Positions 2,900 to 16,424 of a stretch of 64,000 nt of DNA are shown one piece after another. Under the pieces are notes generated by a model. That model was not told the DNA's origin. It was given only the letters and a program-made list of their open reading frames with translations, and searched no databases. Origin of the DNA: Bacteroidales bacterium (lineage in GTDB: Bacteria > Bacteroidota > Bacteroidia > Bacteroidales > WCHB1-69); contig JAFSOZ010000003.1 of assembly GCA_017443175.1 (NCBI GenBank), positions 225,892 through 289,891 on the forward strand, given 5' to 3'. Position 1 is the first letter of the stretch; each line of letters starts with the position of its first letter. The position numbers and the translations under genes were made by a program.

Positions 2900-3424
2900 A
2901 TGAGAAAAGCAAGCAGACAAATGGATGCCGCCTTCGCATTGGAGGTGCTGGACAAGGCTCCATACGTGACAGTCAGTTTCACCCGTCCTGATGGGACACC
3001 CTATGGATTGCCCCTGTCGTTGGCGCGGACTGATGAAAGAACATTCTATTTCCATTGCGCCTTGGAGGGCGAAAAGCTTGACTGCATAGCACACTGTCCA
3101 ACGGTCTTCCTCTCGGCTGTCACCAAATGTGCGCCTACCGTTGGTCCGAAGGACGGCAACTTCACGCTGCAGTACAAATCAGCCACTGCCGTTGGAAAGG
3201 CAAAGTTGGTGACCGACCGCGAAGAGAAAATCGAGGGTCTTCGAGTTATCTGCCAGCGGTTCCTCCCCAAACACATGGACGCTTTCGATGCTGCCATTGC
3301 ACGCAGCTTCGAACGGACTGCTGTTGTGCGCATCACCCTCACGGAACCTCCCATCGGCAAGCGCAAGCAATACGACAAGGCAGGAGAGGAAATGACGAAC
3401 GAGCGAGAGCAGAGCTGTAGATAA
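2900..3424 (+). CDS. NimA-like pyridoxamine 5'-phosphate oxidase-fold protein
   Basis: A 174-residue split-barrel flavin-binding protein. The order of conserved segments (KASRQMD at 3-9, DKAPYVTVS at 18-26, DGTPYGLPLS at 31-40, FHCALEGEKLDC at 51-62, KCAPTVGPKDGNFTLQY at 76-92, LPKHMDAFDAA at 121-131) is that of the Nim/antibiotic-resistance branch of the PNPOx family, some members of which reduce 5-nitroimidazoles; most chromosomal relatives have no proven substrate. The normal C-terminus ends near KRKQYDKAGEEM; the last residues NEREQSCR run up to a broken acetyltransferase that begins immediately after the stop, suggesting a deletion junction here. Confidence 0.85.
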   Translation: MRKASRQMDAAFALEVLDKAPYVTVSFTRPDGTPYGLPLSLARTDERTFYFHCALEGEKLDCIAHCPTVFLSAVTKCAPTVGPKDGNFTLQYKSATAVGKAKLVTDREEKIEGLRVICQRFLPKHMDAFDAAIARSFERTAVVRITLTEPPIGKRKQYDKAGEEMTNEREQSCR

Positions 3425-8222: not shown

Positions 8223-8753
8223 CTATTTCTTGACGATATTGGAAATCTTATAGGTCGTCACGGTGCCGTTGAACTCCTCAAACACCAATTCTACCGGAAT
8301 ATTATCGGATTTACGGTAAGTGATGACGATTTTGGAGTAGCCGCGCGGAGCCGCCTTCTTCGCACGCAACGTCACCACTTTGTTGGCTCCTTTTTCGACA
8401 ACGGAGCTCTCAGCGTTATTGTCGGTGGCCGCTTGTTTCCAATTGGCGTTGACACAGTTCATCAGGGTATTGCGATAGGTGCGCATGGAGGCGTTTTTTT
8501 CAGTATCTACCACCGACTTTTTGCCGCGGAGATTCGAACTCATGGTCTTGCCGTCAATGATGAAATAATCTCCGGCCGGCTTGGTGTATCGAAGTTCCAT
8601 CTTGTCGGCAGAAAAAAGCTTGAGATTGCCCTCCGCCTCAACGGTTTTGCCGGAGGCTTTGATGAATTTGGATTCGGTGAAACGGGCCTCCACCTTCTGG
8701 GCGGATGCGGCAAACGCCAACATGACAATGACAACAGTCAGAATTTTCTTCAT
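8223..8753 (-). CDS. LolA-like periplasmic lipid/lipoprotein carrier
   Basis: A 176-residue exported protein with signal peptide MKKILTVVIVMLAFAASAQ followed by the LolA-type half-barrel pattern: FTESKFIKASGKTVEAEGNL, LRYTKPAGDYFIIDGKTM and a C-terminal VELVFEEFNGTVTTYKISNI strand pair. LolA-fold proteins carry lipoproteins or other lipids across the periplasm. This one is shorter than canonical LolA and lies 12 bp after an MMPL/RND exporter gene on the same strand, a pairing known from aryl polyene loci and found here beside sphingolipid genes. I infer a carrier for a lipid product rather than the housekeeping lipoprotein carrier. Confidence 0.8.
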   Translation of the reverse strand: MKKILTVVIVMLAFAASAQKVEARFTESKFIKASGKTVEAEGNLKLFSADKMELRYTKPAGDYFIIDGKTMSSNLRGKKSVVDTEKNASMRTYRNTLMNCVNANWKQAATDNNAESSVVEKGANKVVTLRAKKAAPRGYSKIVITYRKSDNIPVELVFEEFNGTVTTYKISNIVKK

Positions 8754-8765
8754 ATTTCAATATTA

Positions 8766-11189
8766 TTAAATTTTTTCCACTCTTCGCTTCATATACGGCC
8801 ATTTCATCAGCCAGCGGAACAACAACGGCTGCAACGTGTAGGTAATCAGGATGGTGGAGATCATGCCAATCAACGCACACTCGCTGATGGAGACGATGGT
8901 CGGATGCTTGGCGAACAACATGGCTCCCATCACGACAATCAACACCAAAGCAGAAAAGAAAATGGCCACTTTATGGTACTCCAACAGATGACTCTCCTCC
9001 TGACGTTGCCGCTCAATGAGCCCTTTCATGACGAAAATGCTATAATCCACACCGATACCGAAGATAAAGGTGGAAATCACAATGTTGATCATATTGAACG
9101 ACAGCCCGAGAATAGCCATCCAGCCTTGCACTACATACCAACTCAGGAACATCGGCATGAAGGCGAGGAGCGAGATGAAAATGTCCCGGAAGGAGATGAG
9201 CAATACCAAAAACACAAAGATTGACGAGATGACCAACGCCATATTGAAATCTTTGTGAATCAGGGAGATCATGCCACCCGTGTAGTACAAGGGGTCCACC
9301 ACCACGGCGTGCGGTTTCGCGGCAACAAGGTCGTCAACCTCTTTCATTTTATCCTTGGAAAACTTCGGGGCGTTGAAAATCAGGAATTTACCATCTGTTT
9401 CTTCGATAAAGTTGCAGAGCAAGCCATCGGGGACAATGCCCGACTCGTATAGGTTGCCAGGTTCGTATTCGGCCTCAATCATGGCCTGGAACGGCACAAA
9501 GATGTCAGGGGAGAGGCCGTTTTTCGAAGCGGCGGACTTCACGGCAGCCATCGCCTGAGAGACCTTTTCGGGAGTCCAATAACGCTGCCAGGCGGCAATG
9601 CGGCGTTCCTGTTCCGCTTGCGATTGGAACAGCAGCGACGCCACCGGTGTGTAGGAGAAAATGTCTCCAGTCCCGCGCAACGAATCCAATGTGGTGGCAA
9701 GCACCATGTTGGCATCCAAAGCTTCGTCCAAATCAGCAGCGGTGACCGCATAATACCGCTGCATACCGCCTTGGTCGTTCTTCTCCTCATACAGATCCCT
9801 GGACTTCTGGAAAGCCTCGCTCTCATAACCGATATGTTTCAGGTCATTGTCGAACTGCACCTTGCCCGAAAAGATGAATCCAATCAGGATAACGATGCAT
9901 AATACTGTGATAATAATAGAGTTACGATCGTACGGATAATTATTGATCTTGTCAATTAATTTAAACGCTTTTTTGCTGTGTTTGGCATCTTTCACATTCA
10001 GGAAATGGGGCAGGAAAATTAATGCGAAAAAGGTGCTTCCAAGTAGTGCAAAGGTGGCGAACAGCCCGAAATCCTTCAATAGTTCGCTTTCGGTGAACAT
10101 CAGACCGAGGAAGGCGCCGACAGTGGTAAGACAGCCGAGGCAGACGGGAACGGCCTCATCCTTCAGCATCTGCTCCACATCACCCACAAACCGCTGATGT
10201 ACAATTATATGCAAACAATAACTGAGTGCAACGCCCAAAATTACGGCACCCACACCCAAGGCCATCAATGACATGCCCCCCTTGATCCAATACATGCAGG
10301 CCAACGCGAAGATTGTACCGTAAACAATCGGTAGCACATTCTGCCATATAATATTGTAGCTCTTGAAACTGATGCATAAATAGAGGAGAATCAGCACTAA
10401 AGAGATACCGATTGTAATGGCAATGTCGCGTTTCATGGTGCTGGCGTTGCCGACCGCCTCCACCGCGCCGCCATGCATGAGCACCTCCACATCCGGGTGC
10501 GCCTGATGAAATTGATCTATGCACTGGTTGAGATGGCTGACGAGCTTATGGCTGGCTTGTGAATCAAATGTTTGGAAATCAGGGGAGATGAAGATCAGTG
10601 CCACGGTGCTGTCGGGGCTGAAAAGATGTCCGTCAATAAGGGCAAAGCCCATGCCGCCGGAGATGTCGGACATCAGGCACTCGCGCAGCCCCAACGGGTC
10701 GGTAGAGACCAAATCCGAAGCCATGCCGGTCTCGTCGTTCATGATCAGCTCATAATTGCGGGCCATGGTTTCGTCAGCGTGAGCGATGGCGGAATCGAAG
10801 CGGGCGTACAGGGTCGTGTCCACGAACGACGGCACATGCATCATGGCATAATCGAGCGCGTTGAGGGCCATATCGGGCTCCAGACGGTAGAGCGTGTTGG
10901 CAATGCCCTCGTCGTTGGTGAGGATGGAGTCCATCAGCTCATCGACATAGCCGACCAACACCTCGGGTTCCGCCCCAGTCACTTGCATGAAGAGTTTGTC
11001 TTTGACCTTGATGTTGCCAAAGAGCAGCCCGCTTTCCGACTTCTCGGATTTCGGCAAAAGTTTCATCAAATCCTCTTCAAAATGCGCCTTTGCCGCAAAA
11101 AAGGCAAAAACGACACTGCTTAAAACCAAAAGTATATATAGAAGGAACTTATGCTGTGTGAAGAAGCGGTAAATTCTTACAAAAACCAT
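8766..11189 (-). CDS. MMPL/RND-family lipid exporter
   Basis: An 807-residue inner-membrane protein with the RND layout: one helix (about 13-30), a large periplasmic domain (about 35-245), five helices (about 250-400), then a second helix, periplasmic domain and five-helix block (about 420-800). The second-half stretch GLSFNMINIVISTFIFGIGV then DYSIF shows the charged residue pattern of helix 10 in MMPL proteins. Relatives flip or export lipids (mycobacterial MmpL3, hopanoid exporter HpnN). It is divergent from serine palmitoyltransferase and followed by a LolA-like carrier, so I infer export of sphingolipid or a related lipid. Confidence 0.85.
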   Translation of the reverse strand: MVFVRIYRFFTQHKFLLYILLVLSSVVFAFFAAKAHFEEDLMKLLPKSEKSESGLLFGNIKVKDKLFMQVTGAEPEVLVGYVDELMDSILTNDEGIANTLYRLEPDMALNALDYAMMHVPSFVDTTLYARFDSAIAHADETMARNYELIMNDETGMASDLVSTDPLGLRECLMSDISGGMGFALIDGHLFSPDSTVALIFISPDFQTFDSQASHKLVSHLNQCIDQFHQAHPDVEVLMHGGAVEAVGNASTMKRDIAITIGISLVLILLYLCISFKSYNIIWQNVLPIVYGTIFALACMYWIKGGMSLMALGVGAVILGVALSYCLHIIVHQRFVGDVEQMLKDEAVPVCLGCLTTVGAFLGLMFTESELLKDFGLFATFALLGSTFFALIFLPHFLNVKDAKHSKKAFKLIDKINNYPYDRNSIIITVLCIVILIGFIFSGKVQFDNDLKHIGYESEAFQKSRDLYEEKNDQGGMQRYYAVTAADLDEALDANMVLATTLDSLRGTGDIFSYTPVASLLFQSQAEQERRIAAWQRYWTPEKVSQAMAAVKSAASKNGLSPDIFVPFQAMIEAEYEPGNLYESGIVPDGLLCNFIEETDGKFLIFNAPKFSKDKMKEVDDLVAAKPHAVVVDPLYYTGGMISLIHKDFNMALVISSIFVFLVLLISFRDIFISLLAFMPMFLSWYVVQGWMAILGLSFNMINIVISTFIFGIGVDYSIFVMKGLIERQRQEESHLLEYHKVAIFFSALVLIVVMGAMLFAKHPTIVSISECALIGMISTILITYTLQPLLFRWLMKWPYMKRRVEKI

Positions 11190-11202
11190 ATCAAATCTTT
11201 AT

Positions 11203-11210
11203 CAAAAATA
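11203..11210 (-). promoter_or_regulatory. -7 promoter box of the MMPL-LolA operon
   Basis: TATTTTTG on the minus strand, 13 bp before the ATG at 11189. A second identical box lies at 11250-11243. Confidence 0.5.
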
Positions 11211-11263
11211 GTATCAAATAATGCCTGCCATTTTAGCGGCGGCAAAAATACTCAAATTTTATG

Positions 11264-11271
11264 TATCTTTG
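11264..11271 (+). promoter_or_regulatory. -7 promoter box of the serine palmitoyltransferase gene
   Basis: TATCTTTG, matching TAnnTTTG, leaving a leader of about 140 bp before the ATG at 11418. The leader contains an 18-codon hydrophobic reading frame (11338-11394). Confidence 0.55.
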
Positions 11272-11417
11272 CAGCTCATTAAAATGATTGATTAGATGCA
11301 TTTTATAAATATTAAAGAAACTTAAAATCAAAAAGATATGAAAATCATCATTCCGATTTTGCTTTTTTTGATTATTCATAATTTGTTGGTTTAGGTTGCA
11401 AAAAAATATTACTAAAC

Positions 11418-12608
11418 ATGAGAAATCATCTTTTACAAAAGAAATGCGCACAATACAGGGCTCCACAAATTGCAAAAGCCAAGGGAATCTATCCATACTA
11501 TAAGGCTATTGAGTCAGAACAGAGTACAGTAGTGAAAATTGGCGGCAAGAACGTGCTCATGTTCAGTTCAAACAGCTATTTAGGTCTTTCCAATGACCCG
11601 CGGCTGAAAGAGGCTGCCAAAGCTGCTATTGACAAATACGGAACGAGTTGCTCCGGATCACGTTTTCTCAATGGGACACTCGATATCCACGAAGAGTTGG
11701 AAAACAAACTCGCCCAATTGGTGGGCAAGGAAGGAGCACTGTGCTTCAGTACAGGTTTTCAGGTCAATCTCGGCGTGGTTTCCGCACTGTGCGGCCGCAG
11801 CGATTACCTACTGCTCGACAAGCTTAATCACGCCTCCATCATTGAAGGAAGCCGGTTGGCATTCGGCAAGTCGCTGAAATACGCCCACAACGACATGGAG
11901 AGTTTGGAGAAGCTTTTACAGCAATGCGAACCCGAATCTGTCAAGCTGATTGTAACCGACGGTGTCTTCTCCATGGAAGGCGACATCGTTCCGCTGCCCG
12001 AAATGGTGGCGCTGGCGGAGAAATACGATGCGGAGATCATGCTTGACGATGCCCACTCCATAGGTATCTTGGGACATCAGGGCAGGGGCACTGCCGACCA
12101 TTTCGGTCTGACCGACAAGGTGGATCTCATCATGGGCACCTTCTCAAAGTCGTTCGGTTCGTTGGGCGGCTTCATCGCTTCCGATGCTGACACCATCAAT
12201 TACCTGAAACACAATGCCCGCTCGCTGATTTTCAGCGCCAGCATGCCACCGTCCAACGTGGCTGCGGTCAGTAAAGCTATCGACATCATGCTCAGTGAGC
12301 CGGAGCGTATCCAGCACCTGTGGGACATAAGCAACTACGCCCGCAATCAGTTCAAGGAGCGCGGCTTCGACACAGGCCGCAGCGAAACGCCTATCATTCC
12401 GCTGTTTGTCCGGAATTCGGAGAAAGCCTTCTGGCTCTGCTCCCGCCTGTTGGAGGACGGCGTCTTTGTCACCCCGGTCATTGCCCCTGCGGTACCCGAA
12501 AGTGACGTGCTGATCCGCTTCGCCCTGATGGCCACGCACACCTACGAGCAAGTGGATGAGGCCGTTGACAAAATCACAAAAGCGTTTAAGGACGCGGGAA
12601 TCCTATAG
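11418..12608 (+). CDS. spt: serine palmitoyltransferase-type alpha-oxoamine synthase
   Basis: A 396-residue soluble PLP enzyme of the AONS/KBL/SPT family, which condenses an acyl thioester with an amino acid. The PLP lysine is K244 in GTFSKSFGSLGG; NSYLGLS (about 53-59), DKLNHASIIEG (about 134-144) and DDAHSIGILG (about 211-220) are conserved. The N-terminus with AKGIYPYYKAIE is the pattern of Bacteroidota serine palmitoyltransferases rather than of glycine C-acetyltransferase, and the neighbours (ACP, acyl ligase, reductase, acyltransferase) support the first committed step of sphingoid base synthesis. The downstream reductase gene begins 2 bp after its stop. Confidence 0.88.
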   Translation: MRNHLLQKKCAQYRAPQIAKAKGIYPYYKAIESEQSTVVKIGGKNVLMFSSNSYLGLSNDPRLKEAAKAAIDKYGTSCSGSRFLNGTLDIHEELENKLAQLVGKEGALCFSTGFQVNLGVVSALCGRSDYLLLDKLNHASIIEGSRLAFGKSLKYAHNDMESLEKLLQQCEPESVKLIVTDGVFSMEGDIVPLPEMVALAEKYDAEIMLDDAHSIGILGHQGRGTADHFGLTDKVDLIMGTFSKSFGSLGGFIASDADTINYLKHNARSLIFSASMPPSNVAAVSKAIDIMLSEPERIQHLWDISNYARNQFKERGFDTGRSETPIIPLFVRNSEKAFWLCSRLLEDGVFVTPVIAPAVPESDVLIRFALMATHTYEQVDEAVDKITKAFKDAGIL

Positions 12609-12610
12609 TC

Positions 12611-13405
12611 ATGGTTATTCTGATTACTGGTGTTTCGTCGGGTTTCGGTTTGGAAACCGCCCGTCTGCTGGCACAGGAAGGTCATACCGTTTATGGCACT
12701 GTGCGCCGTGAGGTGGAAGCGCTCCCCGGTGTGCATTATCTGAAAGTGGATGTCCGCGACCGCGAAGCGGTGAAAAACACCGTACAACAAGTGGTTGACA
12801 AGGAAGGTCGCATTGATGTGCTGGTCAACAACGCCGGCATGGGCATCGGCGGACCGGTGGAATTTGCCACCGAGGAGGAAATTCGGGAACAGATGGACGC
12901 CAACTTCATGGGGTTGGTACATTTTGTGACTGCCGTGCTGCCCTTCATGCGCAAGCAAGGTTCCGGCAAAATCATCGCAATGAGCTCCATCGGTGGCGTG
13001 ATGGGACTACCCTTCCAAGGCTTCTACTCCGCCAGCAAATTTGCCATCGAAGGCTACTGCGAAGCACTTCGCTTGGAAATTCAACAATTTGGCATCCAGG
13101 TTGTTGTAGTTCGTCCAGGCGATTTTTCCACGGGTTTTACCGCCAGTCGAAAAAAGACACCCAACACGGAAGCGATGCAGGTTTACCAAACCTACGCCGA
13201 GTCGATGAATAAGGTGGAACACGACGAAACCGGCGGGTTGAAGCCACAAGTGTTAGCCCGCAAAATCAGCCAAATCATCCGTAAAGAGAGACCTCGCCAC
13301 GGTTATGTGGTGGCCTCGTTCGAGCAACGCCTGTCAGTGCTCATGAAACGCATCCTGCCCGCCCGCTGGTTCGCGAAAATCCTCGGCAGTTATTACAAAT
13401 TATAA
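12611..13405 (+). CDS. short-chain dehydrogenase/reductase, candidate 3-ketosphinganine reductase
   Basis: A 264-residue classical SDR: nucleotide-binding TGVSSGFG (about 6-13), NNAG (75-78), catalytic Y139 and K143 in YSASK, and a preceding Ser in the IAMSS strand. It is translationally coupled to serine palmitoyltransferase. Reduction of the 3-keto group of ketosphinganine or of keto-ceramide is the step expected here, and eukaryotic ketosphinganine reductase is also an SDR, but the reductase described for bacterial ceramide synthesis (CerR) belongs to a different SDR subgroup, so the role is inferred from context. The stop codon overlaps a 36-bp palindrome shared with the converging operon. 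Confidence 0.8.
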   Translation: MVILITGVSSGFGLETARLLAQEGHTVYGTVRREVEALPGVHYLKVDVRDREAVKNTVQQVVDKEGRIDVLVNNAGMGIGGPVEFATEEEIREQMDANFMGLVHFVTAVLPFMRKQGSGKIIAMSSIGGVMGLPFQGFYSASKFAIEGYCEALRLEIQQFGIQVVVVRPGDFSTGFTASRKKTPNTEAMQVYQTYAESMNKVEHDETGGLKPQVLARKISQIIRKERPRHGYVVASFEQRLSVLMKRILPARWFAKILGSYYKL

Positions 13406-13440
13406 CGTGTAGAGACGTGCCATGGCGCGTTTCTACACGT
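13405..13440. repeat. 36-bp palindrome between converging genes
   Basis: Arms ACGTGTAGAGACGTGCCA and TGGCGCGTTTCTACACGT pair with two wobble mismatches around CCATGG. It contains the stop codons of both flanking genes or their edges. The core GAGACG...CGTYTC is shared with palindromes at 19360-19381 and (in variant form) 43460-43485. There is no T run, so it is more likely a dispersed palindromic element acting as an mRNA end stabiliser than a classical terminator. Confidence 0.75.
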
Positions 13441-14548
13441 GACGTTTATATGCCCTTCTGCGCATGAACGGAGTGGTTTTATATTCCCCGAACAGCGATT
13501 GCACTTTATAGTTCTCCTCTAATTGCGGGTTCATGATAATGGTGTCAATGCCCCGTTTGATACAGTTTTCGTGTAGATACTTGAATAGCAAAACAGGTAT
13601 TCCACGTTGCTGATACTCAGGCATTACGCCCATAATAAGCGCCTCCAAAGTATCGTTTTTCTTCAGCGCCTTCATGATGCGGATGAAACCGAAGGGAAAC
13701 AACCGTCCGTTGGACTTCTTCACCGCTTTGGAGAGCGACGGCACGCAGAACAGGAAGCCGATCGGCTTGTCTTGGCCGTTGACGGCTACTGCCACGAAGT
13801 CCTTGTCCAAGATAGGCACGTATGTCTTCAAATAGGCGTCTATCTGTTTGTCGGTCAGAGGTGAAAAACCGTGCAGCGGAGCAAAAGCCTCGTTATACAT
13901 GTGGAAAATTTCCATGCCGTAGCGCTTGCACATGTCGTTCATGCTTTTGGGGATGACCACATGCACATTGGATCTCTCTTCAATCAGGTGAGCGAATTGG
14001 AACATGGACGGCAGTTCGGGGGGCACCTCCAACGTCCGTTGGGTCCAGTCAACCTCCTTCGTAAAGCCGAGTTTTTCCAACATAGGCCCATAATAGGGGT
14101 AGTTGTAAAGGCAGGTAAAGGGACTCAAATGTTCGAAACCCTCCACCAACAGGCCTTCTTTGTCCATGTCAGTGAAGCCCCACGGACCTCTCATCGAGGT
14201 GCGTCCGCGCTGTTTTCCCCATTCGGCGACAGTGTCAATCAGGGACTTGAGCACCTCCTCGTCCTCGATGAAGTCGAGCCAGCCGAAACGGACGAGTTTC
14301 TGTTCGTCGTCGGCCTTGTGGTTGATGATGGCGGCCACGCGTCCTACAACCTCATCGCCGCGAAAGGCTAAAAAACAGTCTGCTTCGCAAAAGTCGTATG
14401 CGCCGTTTTTTTGAGGATTGAAAGTGTCATATTCGTCGCCTTCCAACGCCGGCACCCAATTATCGCAGTTTTTATAAAGATGAAGGGGAAAAGTCACAAA
14501 CTGCTTCAGCTGCTTGTGACTTTCCACCTTTACGATTCTAATATTCAT
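13433..14548 (-). CDS. GNAT-fold acyltransferase, bacterial ceramide synthase-like
   Basis: A 371-residue cytoplasmic protein with two tandem GNAT-like halves (about 1-180 and 200-370); the second holds the acyl-CoA/ACP-binding stretch GVMPEYQQRGIPVLLFKYLH. It ends in an arginine-rich tail. The bacterial ceramide synthase bCerS described in Caulobacter is a GNAT-superfamily protein of about this size, encoded near SPT, ACP and an acyl ligase, which is the arrangement here; N-acylation of the sphingoid base is therefore the best guess. The ATG at 14548 is preferred over 14587, which would lie inside the ACP gene. Alternative: another lipid N-acyltransferase. Confidence 0.72.
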   Translation of the reverse strand: MNIRIVKVESHKQLKQFVTFPLHLYKNCDNWVPALEGDEYDTFNPQKNGAYDFCEADCFLAFRGDEVVGRVAAIINHKADDEQKLVRFGWLDFIEDEEVLKSLIDTVAEWGKQRGRTSMRGPWGFTDMDKEGLLVEGFEHLSPFTCLYNYPYYGPMLEKLGFTKEVDWTQRTLEVPPELPSMFQFAHLIEERSNVHVVIPKSMNDMCKRYGMEIFHMYNEAFAPLHGFSPLTDKQIDAYLKTYVPILDKDFVAVAVNGQDKPIGFLFCVPSLSKAVKKSNGRLFPFGFIRIMKALKKNDTLEALIMGVMPEYQQRGIPVLLFKYLHENCIKRGIDTIIMNPQLEENYKVQSLFGEYKTTPFMRRRAYKRHV

Positions 14549-14567
14549 AAACGTAAAATATTGAACG

Positions 14568-14810
14568 CTATTTTGTTGCGTGTGCACTCACGTAGTCAAT
14601 CACTTCGCCCACCGTTTCAAACTTGGGCGTGCCTTCAAACTTGAAACCGAACTTGTTCTCAACGGCGAGGCTGAGGAGCAGGATGGTGAGGGAGTCGAGG
14701 CCGACATCACGGACGAGCTGTGAATCTTCGGTCACAGCAGACAAGTCCATGGAGGGTTTAATCAGAATCAGAATCTCTTTTAATTCGTTAAGAATAGTTT
14801 CTCTTTCCAT
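14568..14810 (-). CDS. acyl carrier protein
   Basis: An 80-residue acidic four-helix acyl carrier protein. Phosphopantetheine would attach to S40 in VGLDSLT. It is not in the fatty acid synthesis cluster but sits between an acyl ligase gene (3 bp upstream) and the GNAT acyltransferase gene, so it is probably a dedicated carrier that hands an acyl group to serine palmitoyltransferase or to the N-acyltransferase. Confidence 0.92.
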   Translation of the reverse strand: MERETILNELKEILILIKPSMDLSAVTEDSQLVRDVGLDSLTILLLSLAVENKFGFKFEGTPKFETVGEVIDYVSAHATK

Positions 14811-14813
14811 GTT

Positions 14814-16310
14814 TTATTGATTACGTGATACTTTCAGGGCACCTGTACGCTTGAAATCCTCCTTACGCACAGTAATTTTACTAACTTGATGTGTGCTGGG
14901 CAGCGTGGCGTTGACCTTGCCGACGAGCTCCTTGAAGTAAGCTTCCACTTCCTCCCATGGAGCGTTGCCGAAGTCGTCTATGCGCGGCAAGATTTCGATG
15001 GCAATCACTTGACGGCCATCCATTTCGTCTTCCTTGACAAGGCAGTCGCGAAGTTTGGGGTCTTTGTAGAAAGGCTCCTCGATACTTTCAGGGCTGATGT
15101 TTTCGCCGTTGGAGAGGATGATGAGGTTTTTGATGCGGCCCACGATGTACATAAAGCCGTCTTCGTCGAAACGGACAAGGTCTCCGGTTTTGACCCAGCC
15201 GTCGGGCGTGAGGGTCTCGGCGGTCTTTTCGGGTTCGCCGTAATAGCCGAGGAACACGTTGTCGCCGCGGAACCACAGTTCGCCGTCCACAACCTTGGCT
15301 TCCTGCTCCGGATAGAGCTTGCCTACGGAAGTGGGTCTGGTTTTCACGTCAATGTTGCCAGTGGTGAGGTTGGCACCTTCGGTCATGCCGTAACCGCCGA
15401 AGAGGTTGATGCCCAGTTCGTCGAATTCAGCGATGAGTTTCGGGGGCACGTTGGCAGCGCCAGAGATGATGACCTTCAGCTCGCCACCGAGGAAGGGCTT
15501 GCCGTACATCTTGATGAGACCCAGCAGGATTTCGCAGATGCCGGGCACGGCCACAATCATGGTGGGTCTGATGACAGGCAGTTTGCCGATGGTATCCTTG
15601 GTATTGCCTACGGAATACCAAGAGGCACCTTTATAGAGGACGGACAAAGTGCTGTAAATCAAGCCAAATACGTGACTGAGCGGCAACACGCAAGCGTAGC
15701 GGTGACAACCGAGCTGGTGTCCTGGGGCGTAAACGCCATTCAATGCACCGCGCATCAAGGCACGGTGAGGCAGGATAGCGCCTTTGGGAGCGCCCGTCGT
15801 GCCGCCCGTGAAGAATATGGCGGCGGGGTCGTTCTTATCGACTGTGGCGACCGGAGCGGTTTGGTCGGCGCAATCCGTGATGGCGATAACCTTACAAGGA
15901 GCACCATTCACGGCTTCCATAAAAGATTTTCCAGCAGCCAGCACCTTGACAGCGAACTTCATGCAACAGCCCATAATAGCCTGTGCAGGCAACATTGCCG
16001 GCAGGTTGATAGCGATGTAGCCCGCCGATGTGACGGCAAGAAACATCTCCACCGAATCGGTGGTGGAGTTATCCAAAATGGCCACTTTGTCGCCCTTTTG
16101 CAGCCCAAAGCTGTTGAGGAGGGCACGTTTGCGTGCCACGCGGTCGCAGACCTGGCGATAAGTATAGGTGTTCACCGTGTCGGAAAGACAGGGAAGGTCA
16201 GACCATTTCTGTTCGATCCAAGTTACAAATTCGGGGAGAGTGGGAATGTAATTCACCTGCGCGAGCTCCTCGGCAGGAAGCATAGATGGAAAATAGTTGT
16301 TCTCTTGCAT
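14814..16310 (-). CDS. AMP-forming acyl-CoA/acyl-ACP ligase
   Basis: A 498-residue adenylate-forming enzyme. Visible motifs are FFTGGTTGAPKG (A3, phosphate loop, about 171-182), GGYGMTEGANLTTG (A5), GDLVRFDEDGFMYIVGRIKN (A7/A8) and the C-terminal KRTGALKVSRNQ with the A10 lysine. It would activate a fatty acid as acyl-AMP and load the ACP encoded directly downstream. A frame open to 16352 begins upstream of the inferred transcription start (-7 box 16349-16342), so the ATG at 16310 is chosen. It is the first gene of the ligase-ACP-GNAT operon. Confidence 0.9.
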   Translation of the reverse strand: MQENNYFPSMLPAEELAQVNYIPTLPEFVTWIEQKWSDLPCLSDTVNTYTYRQVCDRVARKRALLNSFGLQKGDKVAILDNSTTDSVEMFLAVTSAGYIAINLPAMLPAQAIMGCCMKFAVKVLAAGKSFMEAVNGAPCKVIAITDCADQTAPVATVDKNDPAAIFFTGGTTGAPKGAILPHRALMRGALNGVYAPGHQLGCHRYACVLPLSHVFGLIYSTLSVLYKGASWYSVGNTKDTIGKLPVIRPTMIVAVPGICEILLGLIKMYGKPFLGGELKVIISGAANVPPKLIAEFDELGINLFGGYGMTEGANLTTGNIDVKTRPTSVGKLYPEQEAKVVDGELWFRGDNVFLGYYGEPEKTAETLTPDGWVKTGDLVRFDEDGFMYIVGRIKNLIILSNGENISPESIEEPFYKDPKLRDCLVKEDEMDGRQVIAIEILPRIDDFGNAPWEEVEAYFKELVGKVNATLPSTHQVSKITVRKEDFKRTGALKVSRNQ

Positions 16311-16341
16311 AGCTTTGATTCTATCATTTTTTTTCGGGGCG

Positions 16342-16349
16342 CAAAAATA
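16342..16349 (-). promoter_or_regulatory. -7 promoter box of the ligase-ACP-GNAT operon
   Basis: TATTTTTG on the minus strand, 31 bp before the ATG at 16310. It overlaps the region of the alternative upstream ATG (16352) and so rules that start out. Confidence 0.65.
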
Positions 16350-16424
16350 CATAAAATCTTAACATCTGTTAACATTTCCGGTTTATATTATCGTAGATAC
16401 AGCCTTTAGTCTATCACAGGATGT

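Follow-up and report, generated by a model that had tools for sequence, protein, structure and literature searches.

A probable dihydroceramide locus of Bacteroidales in which a KDSR-like SDR looks like a replacement for CerR

The window is a stretch of 64,000 nucleotides from the genome of a Bacteroidales bacterium. Seven ORFs between positions 8223 and 16310 were found at the positions and on the strands given in the original prediction, and the broad family assignment of each is backed by Pfam and NCBIfam. On the plus strand, the gene of a serine palmitoyltransferase (SPT; 11418..12608) is followed by that of a KDSR-like SDR (12611..13405), a proposed 3-ketosphinganine reductase. The ORF list confirmed that these two genes are separated by only two bases, as had been predicted. 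On the minus strand are the genes of an AMP-forming acyl ligase, a proposed acyl-ACP synthetase (14814..16310; Pfam AMP-binding, 192.7 bits), a dedicated acyl carrier protein (ACP; 14568..14810; Pfam PP-binding, 25.2 bits against a cut-off of 20.8) with a GLDSL site in its sequence, and a tandem-GNAT N-acyltransferase, a proposed ceramide synthase (13433..14548; Pfam GNAT, 23.8 bits against a cut-off of 20.7). These three genes converge on the SPT-SDR pair, again in agreement with the prediction, and the layout recurs in the genus. Also on the minus strand, at the other side of the SPT gene, are the genes of an MMPL/RND-type lipid transporter (8766..11189; 807 aa; Pfam MMPL, 69.4 bits) and a LolA-like periplasmic carrier (8223..8753; 176 aa; Pfam LolA, 32.3 bits against a cut-off of 23.6). 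The divergent promoter region between the MMPL unit and the SPT unit (11190..11417) contains TANNTTTG boxes, one on the plus strand and two on the minus strand by raw count; we take TANNTTTG to be the Bacteroidetes -7 consensus.

Two of the gene starts were adjusted. The GNAT ORF (13433-14587, minus strand) opens at a GTG at 14587; the alignments with many relatives begin only near residue 14, so the ATG at 14548 is the likely start. The ligase ORF (14814-16352, minus strand) opens at 16352, and position 16310, the end coordinate given in the original prediction, is the likely start because many relatives align only from residues 12-15. Elsewhere in the window, the protein at positions 2900-3424 shows a weak likeness to nitroimidazole resistance proteins of the NimIJ family (67.6 bits; cut-off 270), and its gene is not a confirmed resistance gene.

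The assignment of the first enzyme as SPT-type was borne out by its family model, its nearest structures, an active-site residue and a tree. It scores 654.6 bits on NF047600 (SerpalmtaseCFB, the Bacteroidetes SPT equivalog; cut-off 640), and the scores on the Kbl, BioF and ALAS models, the α-oxoamine synthases listed, are all under their own cut-offs. An SPT paralogue in the same genome passes the Kbl model instead (665.2 bits; cut-off 493). In a control, the SPT model matched in 11 of 14 known genomes, over the cut-off in one of them (Bacteroides ihuae). The nearest PDB chains, 8guh and 3a2b, are serine palmitoyltransferases. In the alignment, counterparts of Asn53, His140, and Lys251 are present; the PLP lysine is residue 244, and 30 residues later alanine 274 occupies the position of SulA Lys281. 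According to an excerpt of PMC9304779, 7U7H is the structure of SulA of Alistipes finegoldii, and Lys281 is proposed as a mark of SulA as opposed to alanine in SPT. Alanine occupies this position in all 32 other SPT rows of the examined loci. In a tree of 29 rows, the window SPT falls into a group (100/100) with the SPTs of the genus, of near kin, and of the relative G037, separate from the Kbl group (100/99). Where this group parts from BioF, itself on a long branch, and from the cysteate type, support is weak and the branches are long. Grouping with glycine C-acetyltransferase (Kbl) or BioF, the check proposed with the prediction, was thus looked for and not found, and cysteate acyltransferase was excluded as well: judged from its sequence, the window enzyme is none of these three.

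The prediction had also drawn a parallel to the Caulobacter pathway, in which the reductase is CerR. This part was not supported: the window enzyme is a classical SDR, and CerR was not matched in the genus. The best of 220 NCBIfam matches of the SDR is NF049977 KdsR, with 339.8 bits (the next has 232.5). Since this score misses the cut-off of 400, which would count against a KdsR-type enzyme, the SDR is called KDSR-like and is not filed as a KdsR member. The reaction proposed for it is the same as that of the 3-ketosphinganine reductase BT_0972 (PMC9278070, in the part consulted), to which it is likened by description. CerR gave no match at E 1e-35 in G000, the genome holding the window (59% complete), or in the 35 further members of the genus that were searched; with a profile made from CerR of Bacteroidota and E. 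coli, G000 gave none at E 1e-50 either.

The same distribution was observed in wider samples. Among 60 relatives, 26 have an SPT over the cut-off: 19 of them have an SDR (>320 bits) and no CerR match, and the other seven have CerR and no such SDR. Each of the 20 SDR matches above 320 bits is at most 110 bp away from an SPT over the cut-off. CerR was also matched in G045, which is 61% complete and lacks an over-cut-off SPT. The match in G046 is by construction, because sequences of G046 and E. coli made up the CerR profile used for the 60 relatives. In a draw of 198 Bacteroidales, SPT was found in 68 genomes (E 1e-160 or better); among the best 8, 12 or 11 candidates scored per genome, 49 of these have CerR, 16 have an SDR beside SPT, none has both, and three have neither (Fisher p 7e-13 for SDR beside SPT against CerR, genomes being counted without correction for kinship). 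By family, the SDR type was found in 13 and the CerR type in 31, with no overlap. The three genomes with neither type are G188, with a 365-bit SDR elsewhere, G196, with a partial SPT match, and G256, with a 219-bit SDR 1.2 kb from SPT. For six of the 16 SDR genomes, all candidates had been scored in the CerR search of the 60 relatives. The CerR profile for the draw includes rows from seven of the 198 genomes, and the search left a gap: its limit was E 1e-50, and no match is weaker than E 2.5e-91. By score alone (>270 bits), an SDR is present in 20 SPT-positive genomes, 17 without and three with CerR (G108, G168, and G170). Such an SDR without SPT was found in two genomes (G184 and G259), and CerR without SPT in three (G124, G145, and G186).

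In at least 13 of the 49 CerR genomes, CerR lies 1141 to 1443 bp from SPT, which leaves room for one GNAT gene, as in the loci L034 and L130. It should be mentioned that L130:8715-12539 and L141:8760-13314 each hold SPT, GNAT, and CerR and then a second GNAT in one gene run, which amounts to a CerR-type equivalent of the window locus in compact form. SPT and CerR are both present in all of five Bacteroides genomes and one Draconibacterium assembly (6/6 each; three of the six gave rows of the CerR profile), and the SDR model gave no match in them at E 1e-60. In the control of this model, Lactococcus lactis matches at E 1e-60 and nothing does at 1e-62. In a small tree, the SPT-adjacent SDRs form one group, which includes one SDR beside two GNATs (97/95). 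The SDR thus looks like a replacement for CerR, as far as sequence and distribution indicate.

Within the genus (36 genomes, G000 to G035), 15 genomes have an SPT over the cut-off, and 16 of their 17 SPT copies have an SDR beside them. The ligase (E 1e-60 or better) was found among the 60 relatives in exactly these 15 genomes, plus G037 and G052. The arrangement is more than chance, while the 15 co-occurrences are not independent events because the genes are physically linked. Convergence of ligase, ACP, and GNAT on SDR and SPT recurs in the examined regions of the SPT-positive genomes, except for L044, at a contig edge, and G023. The survey of gene neighbourhoods in Bacteroidales, proposed as a check, came out in favor of both linkages, SPT with SDR and ligase-ACP with GNAT. 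G023 has two copies of the locus (L047:8332-12491 and L048:9012-12215). One is without the SDR; in the other, two ORFs make up the GNAT, and neither ligase nor ACP is close by. Together they make up one full set, and this may be an assembly error.

The GNAT protein aligns over its full length with E. coli YghO (391 columns, 28.6%, E 2e-41), whose neighbours in the E. coli record are SPT, ACP, an epimerase-type reductase, and a ligase. This comparison was made directly; the tie to Caulobacter CC_1154 is made via PMC9386255, where a listing in the part seen gives yghO as its counterpart. In a midpoint-rooted tree of 83 rows, the window clade (33 rows, 100/99) joins the GNATs of L034, L130, and L176 (100/97), and a group with Bacteroides GNATs is next out (95/87). 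The GNATs of L034 and L130 adjoin SPT and CerR. By GNAT, the nearest named relatives are uncultured Bacteroidales assemblies, with titles including goat rumen, sheep reticulum, red deer, and reindeer. The fold of the predicted structure (pLDDT 91.8, 40 sequences) is that of a tandem GNAT. The ceramide-synthase type that had been predicted is therefore supported, by membership in the YghO/bCerS family and by the place in the tree next to members in SPT-GNAT-CerR runs, and the protein is proposed to be a ceramide synthase that N-acylates the sphingoid base. A GNAT of the window type (>540 bits) is present in exactly the 15 SPT-positive genomes among the 36 of the genus. The GNAT is not a universal partner of the SPT-SDR pair, since G039, G040, and G056 have the pair, and their GNATs are all more distant and of kinds that SPT-negative genomes have as well.

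Taken together, this stretch very probably encodes synthesis of the ceramide backbone found in bacterial sphingolipids; a dihydroceramide locus is the best explanation of the genes, with a probability of about 0.74. The basis is formed by gene content, homology, linkage, co-occurrence, and exclusion. The scheme that we infer is a prediction as to every enzyme activity, the sequence of the last two reactions, acyl-ACP as the donor of the GNAT, and the export step. In it, SPT would form 3-ketosphinganine, and the SDR, adjacent to SPT and presumably co-transcribed with it, would reduce this to sphinganine in the cytoplasm. The ligase of the minus-strand operon would activate a fatty acid and then load the dedicated ACP. 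The GNAT would transfer the ACP-borne acyl chain to the amino group to give dihydroceramide. The SDR would stand in place of CerR in this lineage, so that reduction probably precedes N-acylation, as in eukaryotes. The product may be exported by the MMPL-LolA pair, which need not be specific to it. The original prediction of a path from free fatty acid to ceramide plus export within 8 kb is thus retained as to the backbone, on the SPT and GNAT families, and given up as to export specific to this pathway.

The roles of the ligase and the ACP were considered from 29 named loci with a window-type GNAT (L102 to L131 without L130; 28 of these are in the GNAT tree, L120 having been dropped for its short ORF). 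A ligase is within 350 bp of the GNAT in 20 loci, within 1.7 kb in one, and was not found in eight, some of them at contig ends. ACP adjoins the ligase in all 21 loci holding one, as counted with an ACP profile built in part from these same loci. At least four gene orders occur among the ligase-ACP-GNAT loci, which suggests a shared function rather than one inherited arrangement. Of the 29 genomes, 22 have SPT, mostly away from the GNAT locus, compared with 68 of 198 in the draw of the order (p 3e-5). In 15 of the 22, an SDR is beside SPT, with scores down to 228 bits. CerR was found in none of the 29 at E 1e-40. SPT was not found in seven of the 29, three of which have an SDR match of at least 278 bits. 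In G037, the SPT-SDR pair is on one contig and ligase-ACP are next to the GNAT on another. At L101:4948-7365, a window-type ligase and ACP adjoin a PlsC-type acyltransferase; the genome, G052, lacks both a GNAT match and an over-cut-off SPT.

The simplest reading of these neighbourhoods is that the ligase-ACP pair supplies acyl-ACP to the neighbouring acyltransferase. Here it probably feeds the N-acyl chain; it is assigned to N-acylation and not to SPT because the linkage follows the GNAT gene, and SPT is mostly elsewhere. The alternative that ligase and ACP supply SPT, in the manner of AasR and AcpR of Proteobacteria, with the GNAT linkage as mere clustering, seems rather unlikely. It has a precedent in the Proteobacterial ACP and ligase that serve SPT (PMC9386255, in the part seen), and all the genes are together in the window. 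However, outside the genus the pair mostly stays with the GNAT while SPT-SDR is elsewhere, the pair of G052 is with another acyltransferase in a genome with no SPT over the cut-off, and Bacteroidetes SPTs use acyl-CoA according to a passage of PMC11324152. The window pair is not orthologous to the Proteobacterial one, contrary to the Caulobacter scheme of the prediction, and is linked to the GNAT, not to SPT. The E. coli ligase scores 871 bits on NF006624, a model of fatty acyl-AMP ligases (cut-off 600), and this family is absent among the 25 best listed for the window ligase (down to 112.7 bits); between the window and E. coli ACPs there was no blastp match at E 1e-3.

In Caulobacter, CerR is located in the periplasm, and its proposed place in the pathway is after N-acylation. 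The replacement of CerR by the SDR thus suggests that reduction comes first, and this order is also read from the operon structure and from an SDR without a signal peptide. In the opposite, Caulobacter-like order, the GNAT would acylate 3-ketosphinganine and the SDR would reduce the N-acylated ketone, CerR being replaced in chemistry and order alike. This order is argued for Caulobacter in the portion of PMC11087976 consulted, and the replacement pattern by itself does not distinguish the two orders. Nevertheless, the SDR begins directly with its nucleotide-binding fold, without a signal peptide by eye, and is therefore expected in the cytoplasm, like SPT; free 3-ketosphinganine is the substrate of its closest named family; and the SDR gene is two bases from that of SPT, with the GNAT in another unit. 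Acylation before reduction is therefore unlikely, and cytoplasmic reduction followed by N-acylation is preferred.

That the locus serves a sulfonolipid (capnine) or another amino-lipid instead of a sphingolipid is highly improbable: a further paralogue, of a 265-304 bit class in the SPT search, does occur in 30 of the 36 genomes of the genus, and that of G020, the sole one compared with PDB, matches the SulA structure 7u7h (574.7 bits) and the cysteate-C-fatty acyltransferase 28eh (537 bits), but the window enzyme passes the SPT model, on which the G020 paralogue has 267.3 bits (cut-off 640), has alanine where both cysteate-type paralogues of the genus looked at (G020 and G004) have lysine at the SulA Lys281 position, and is in a separate tree group, although the deep branches are weak. 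Given these paralogues, sulfonolipid synthesis in the genus probably proceeds through a separate gene. In this connection, a GNAT of a second clade forms a pair with another SDR in all five genomes of the genus looked at, for example at L083:4117-6025 (G022), L084:4486-6511 (G020), and L100:3593-4852. By score, this GNAT is present in 25 of the 36 genomes; as 15 of these are without SPT, it is unlikely to be the sphingolipid GNAT. It and its SDR are candidate enzymes for the N-acylation and reduction steps in making sulfonolipids. The co-occurrence is imperfect: several genomes with the SulA-class paralogue lack the second GNAT.

As for export, the two genes reach only the broad Pfam models LolA and MMPL. 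The best NCBIfam match of MMPL is HpnN (TIGR03480) with 139.4 bits, below its cut-off of 751.85, and the LolA-like protein has 25 bits against 112 for lolA (TIGR00547) and is below the cut-off of LolA2_flexi as well; its N-terminus is signal-peptide-like by eye. An MMPL gene is at the SPT locus in eight of the 15 SPT-positive genomes, with LolA beside it in seven of the eight, the window counted. MMPL matches above 1000 bits were found in all 15 SPT-positive genomes and in eight of the 21 SPT-negative ones. In six of these eight, LolA is also beside MMPL, followed by an ORF of about 280 aa; two such ORFs were scanned (G010 and G002), and both are PF01553 acyltransferases. Sets of MMPL-LolA and then an acyltransferase-like ORF, as at L187:6006-9837 and similarly in L184 to L189 and L192, are found in SPT-negative genomes and, away from SPT, in the SPT-positive G002; such a set might be a lipid transport unit. 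The close homologues in SPT-negative genomes mean that export is possible and not specific to the sphingolipid. An export role of MMPL-LolA is weakly supported, and the predicted export step is not specific to the pathway.

Compared with the genes of Caulobacter and E. coli BL21 (spt, acpR, aasR, epi or cerR, and aca/yghO or cerS; PMC9386255, as far as covered here), the window is alike in having SPT, ACP, an AMP-forming ligase, a reductase, and a YghO-type GNAT in one region. It differs in its CFB-type SPT, in a classical SDR instead of CerR, in a ligase and ACP of other families that are linked to the GNAT, and in MMPL-LolA instead of LptF/LptG homologues; the Caulobacter parallel of the original prediction is thus not supported for the reductase or for the ligase and ACP. 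With the dihydroceramide genes of Bacteroides, the window shares the SPT family, and one Bacteroides GNAT is 44% identical to the window GNAT. We infer that this GNAT is the orthologue of BF9343_4218, used as the CerS of B. fragilis together with BF9343_4240 as CerR in the section of PMC10865984 available. In contrast to the window, all five Bacteroides genomes have CerR and no SDR-model match at E 1e-60, and no ligase or ACP match is listed near the GNAT in their five loci.

Each enzyme type is already known. In the open-licence PMC literature, which leaves out a key survey that may hold part of the pattern, no earlier account was found of the mutual exclusion of CerR and an SPT-linked SDR in Bacteroidales, or of the ligase-ACP-GNAT unit. 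Non-homologous replacement of bCerS and CerR has been raised as a possibility (PMC11334938, in the passage seen), and the window-type SDR is a concrete candidate for the replacement of CerR. We tentatively consider it possible that Bacteroidales have two complete, interchangeable dihydroceramide pathways: the CerR route and a cytoplasmic, reduction-first route with a KDSR-like SDR, an acyl-ACP-dependent ceramide synthase, and its own ligase and ACP. In the part of PMC11087976 seen, the core enzymes, by context Spt, bCerS, and CerR, are stated to be present in all sphingolipid-making bacteria, and the order of the last two steps is described as disputed. The SPT-positive genomes with no CerR match and with an SDR beside SPT speak against universality as worded in that part. 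A survey based on CerR would miss such producers, and the SDR-type genomes provide a natural system for the disputed order of reduction and N-acylation.
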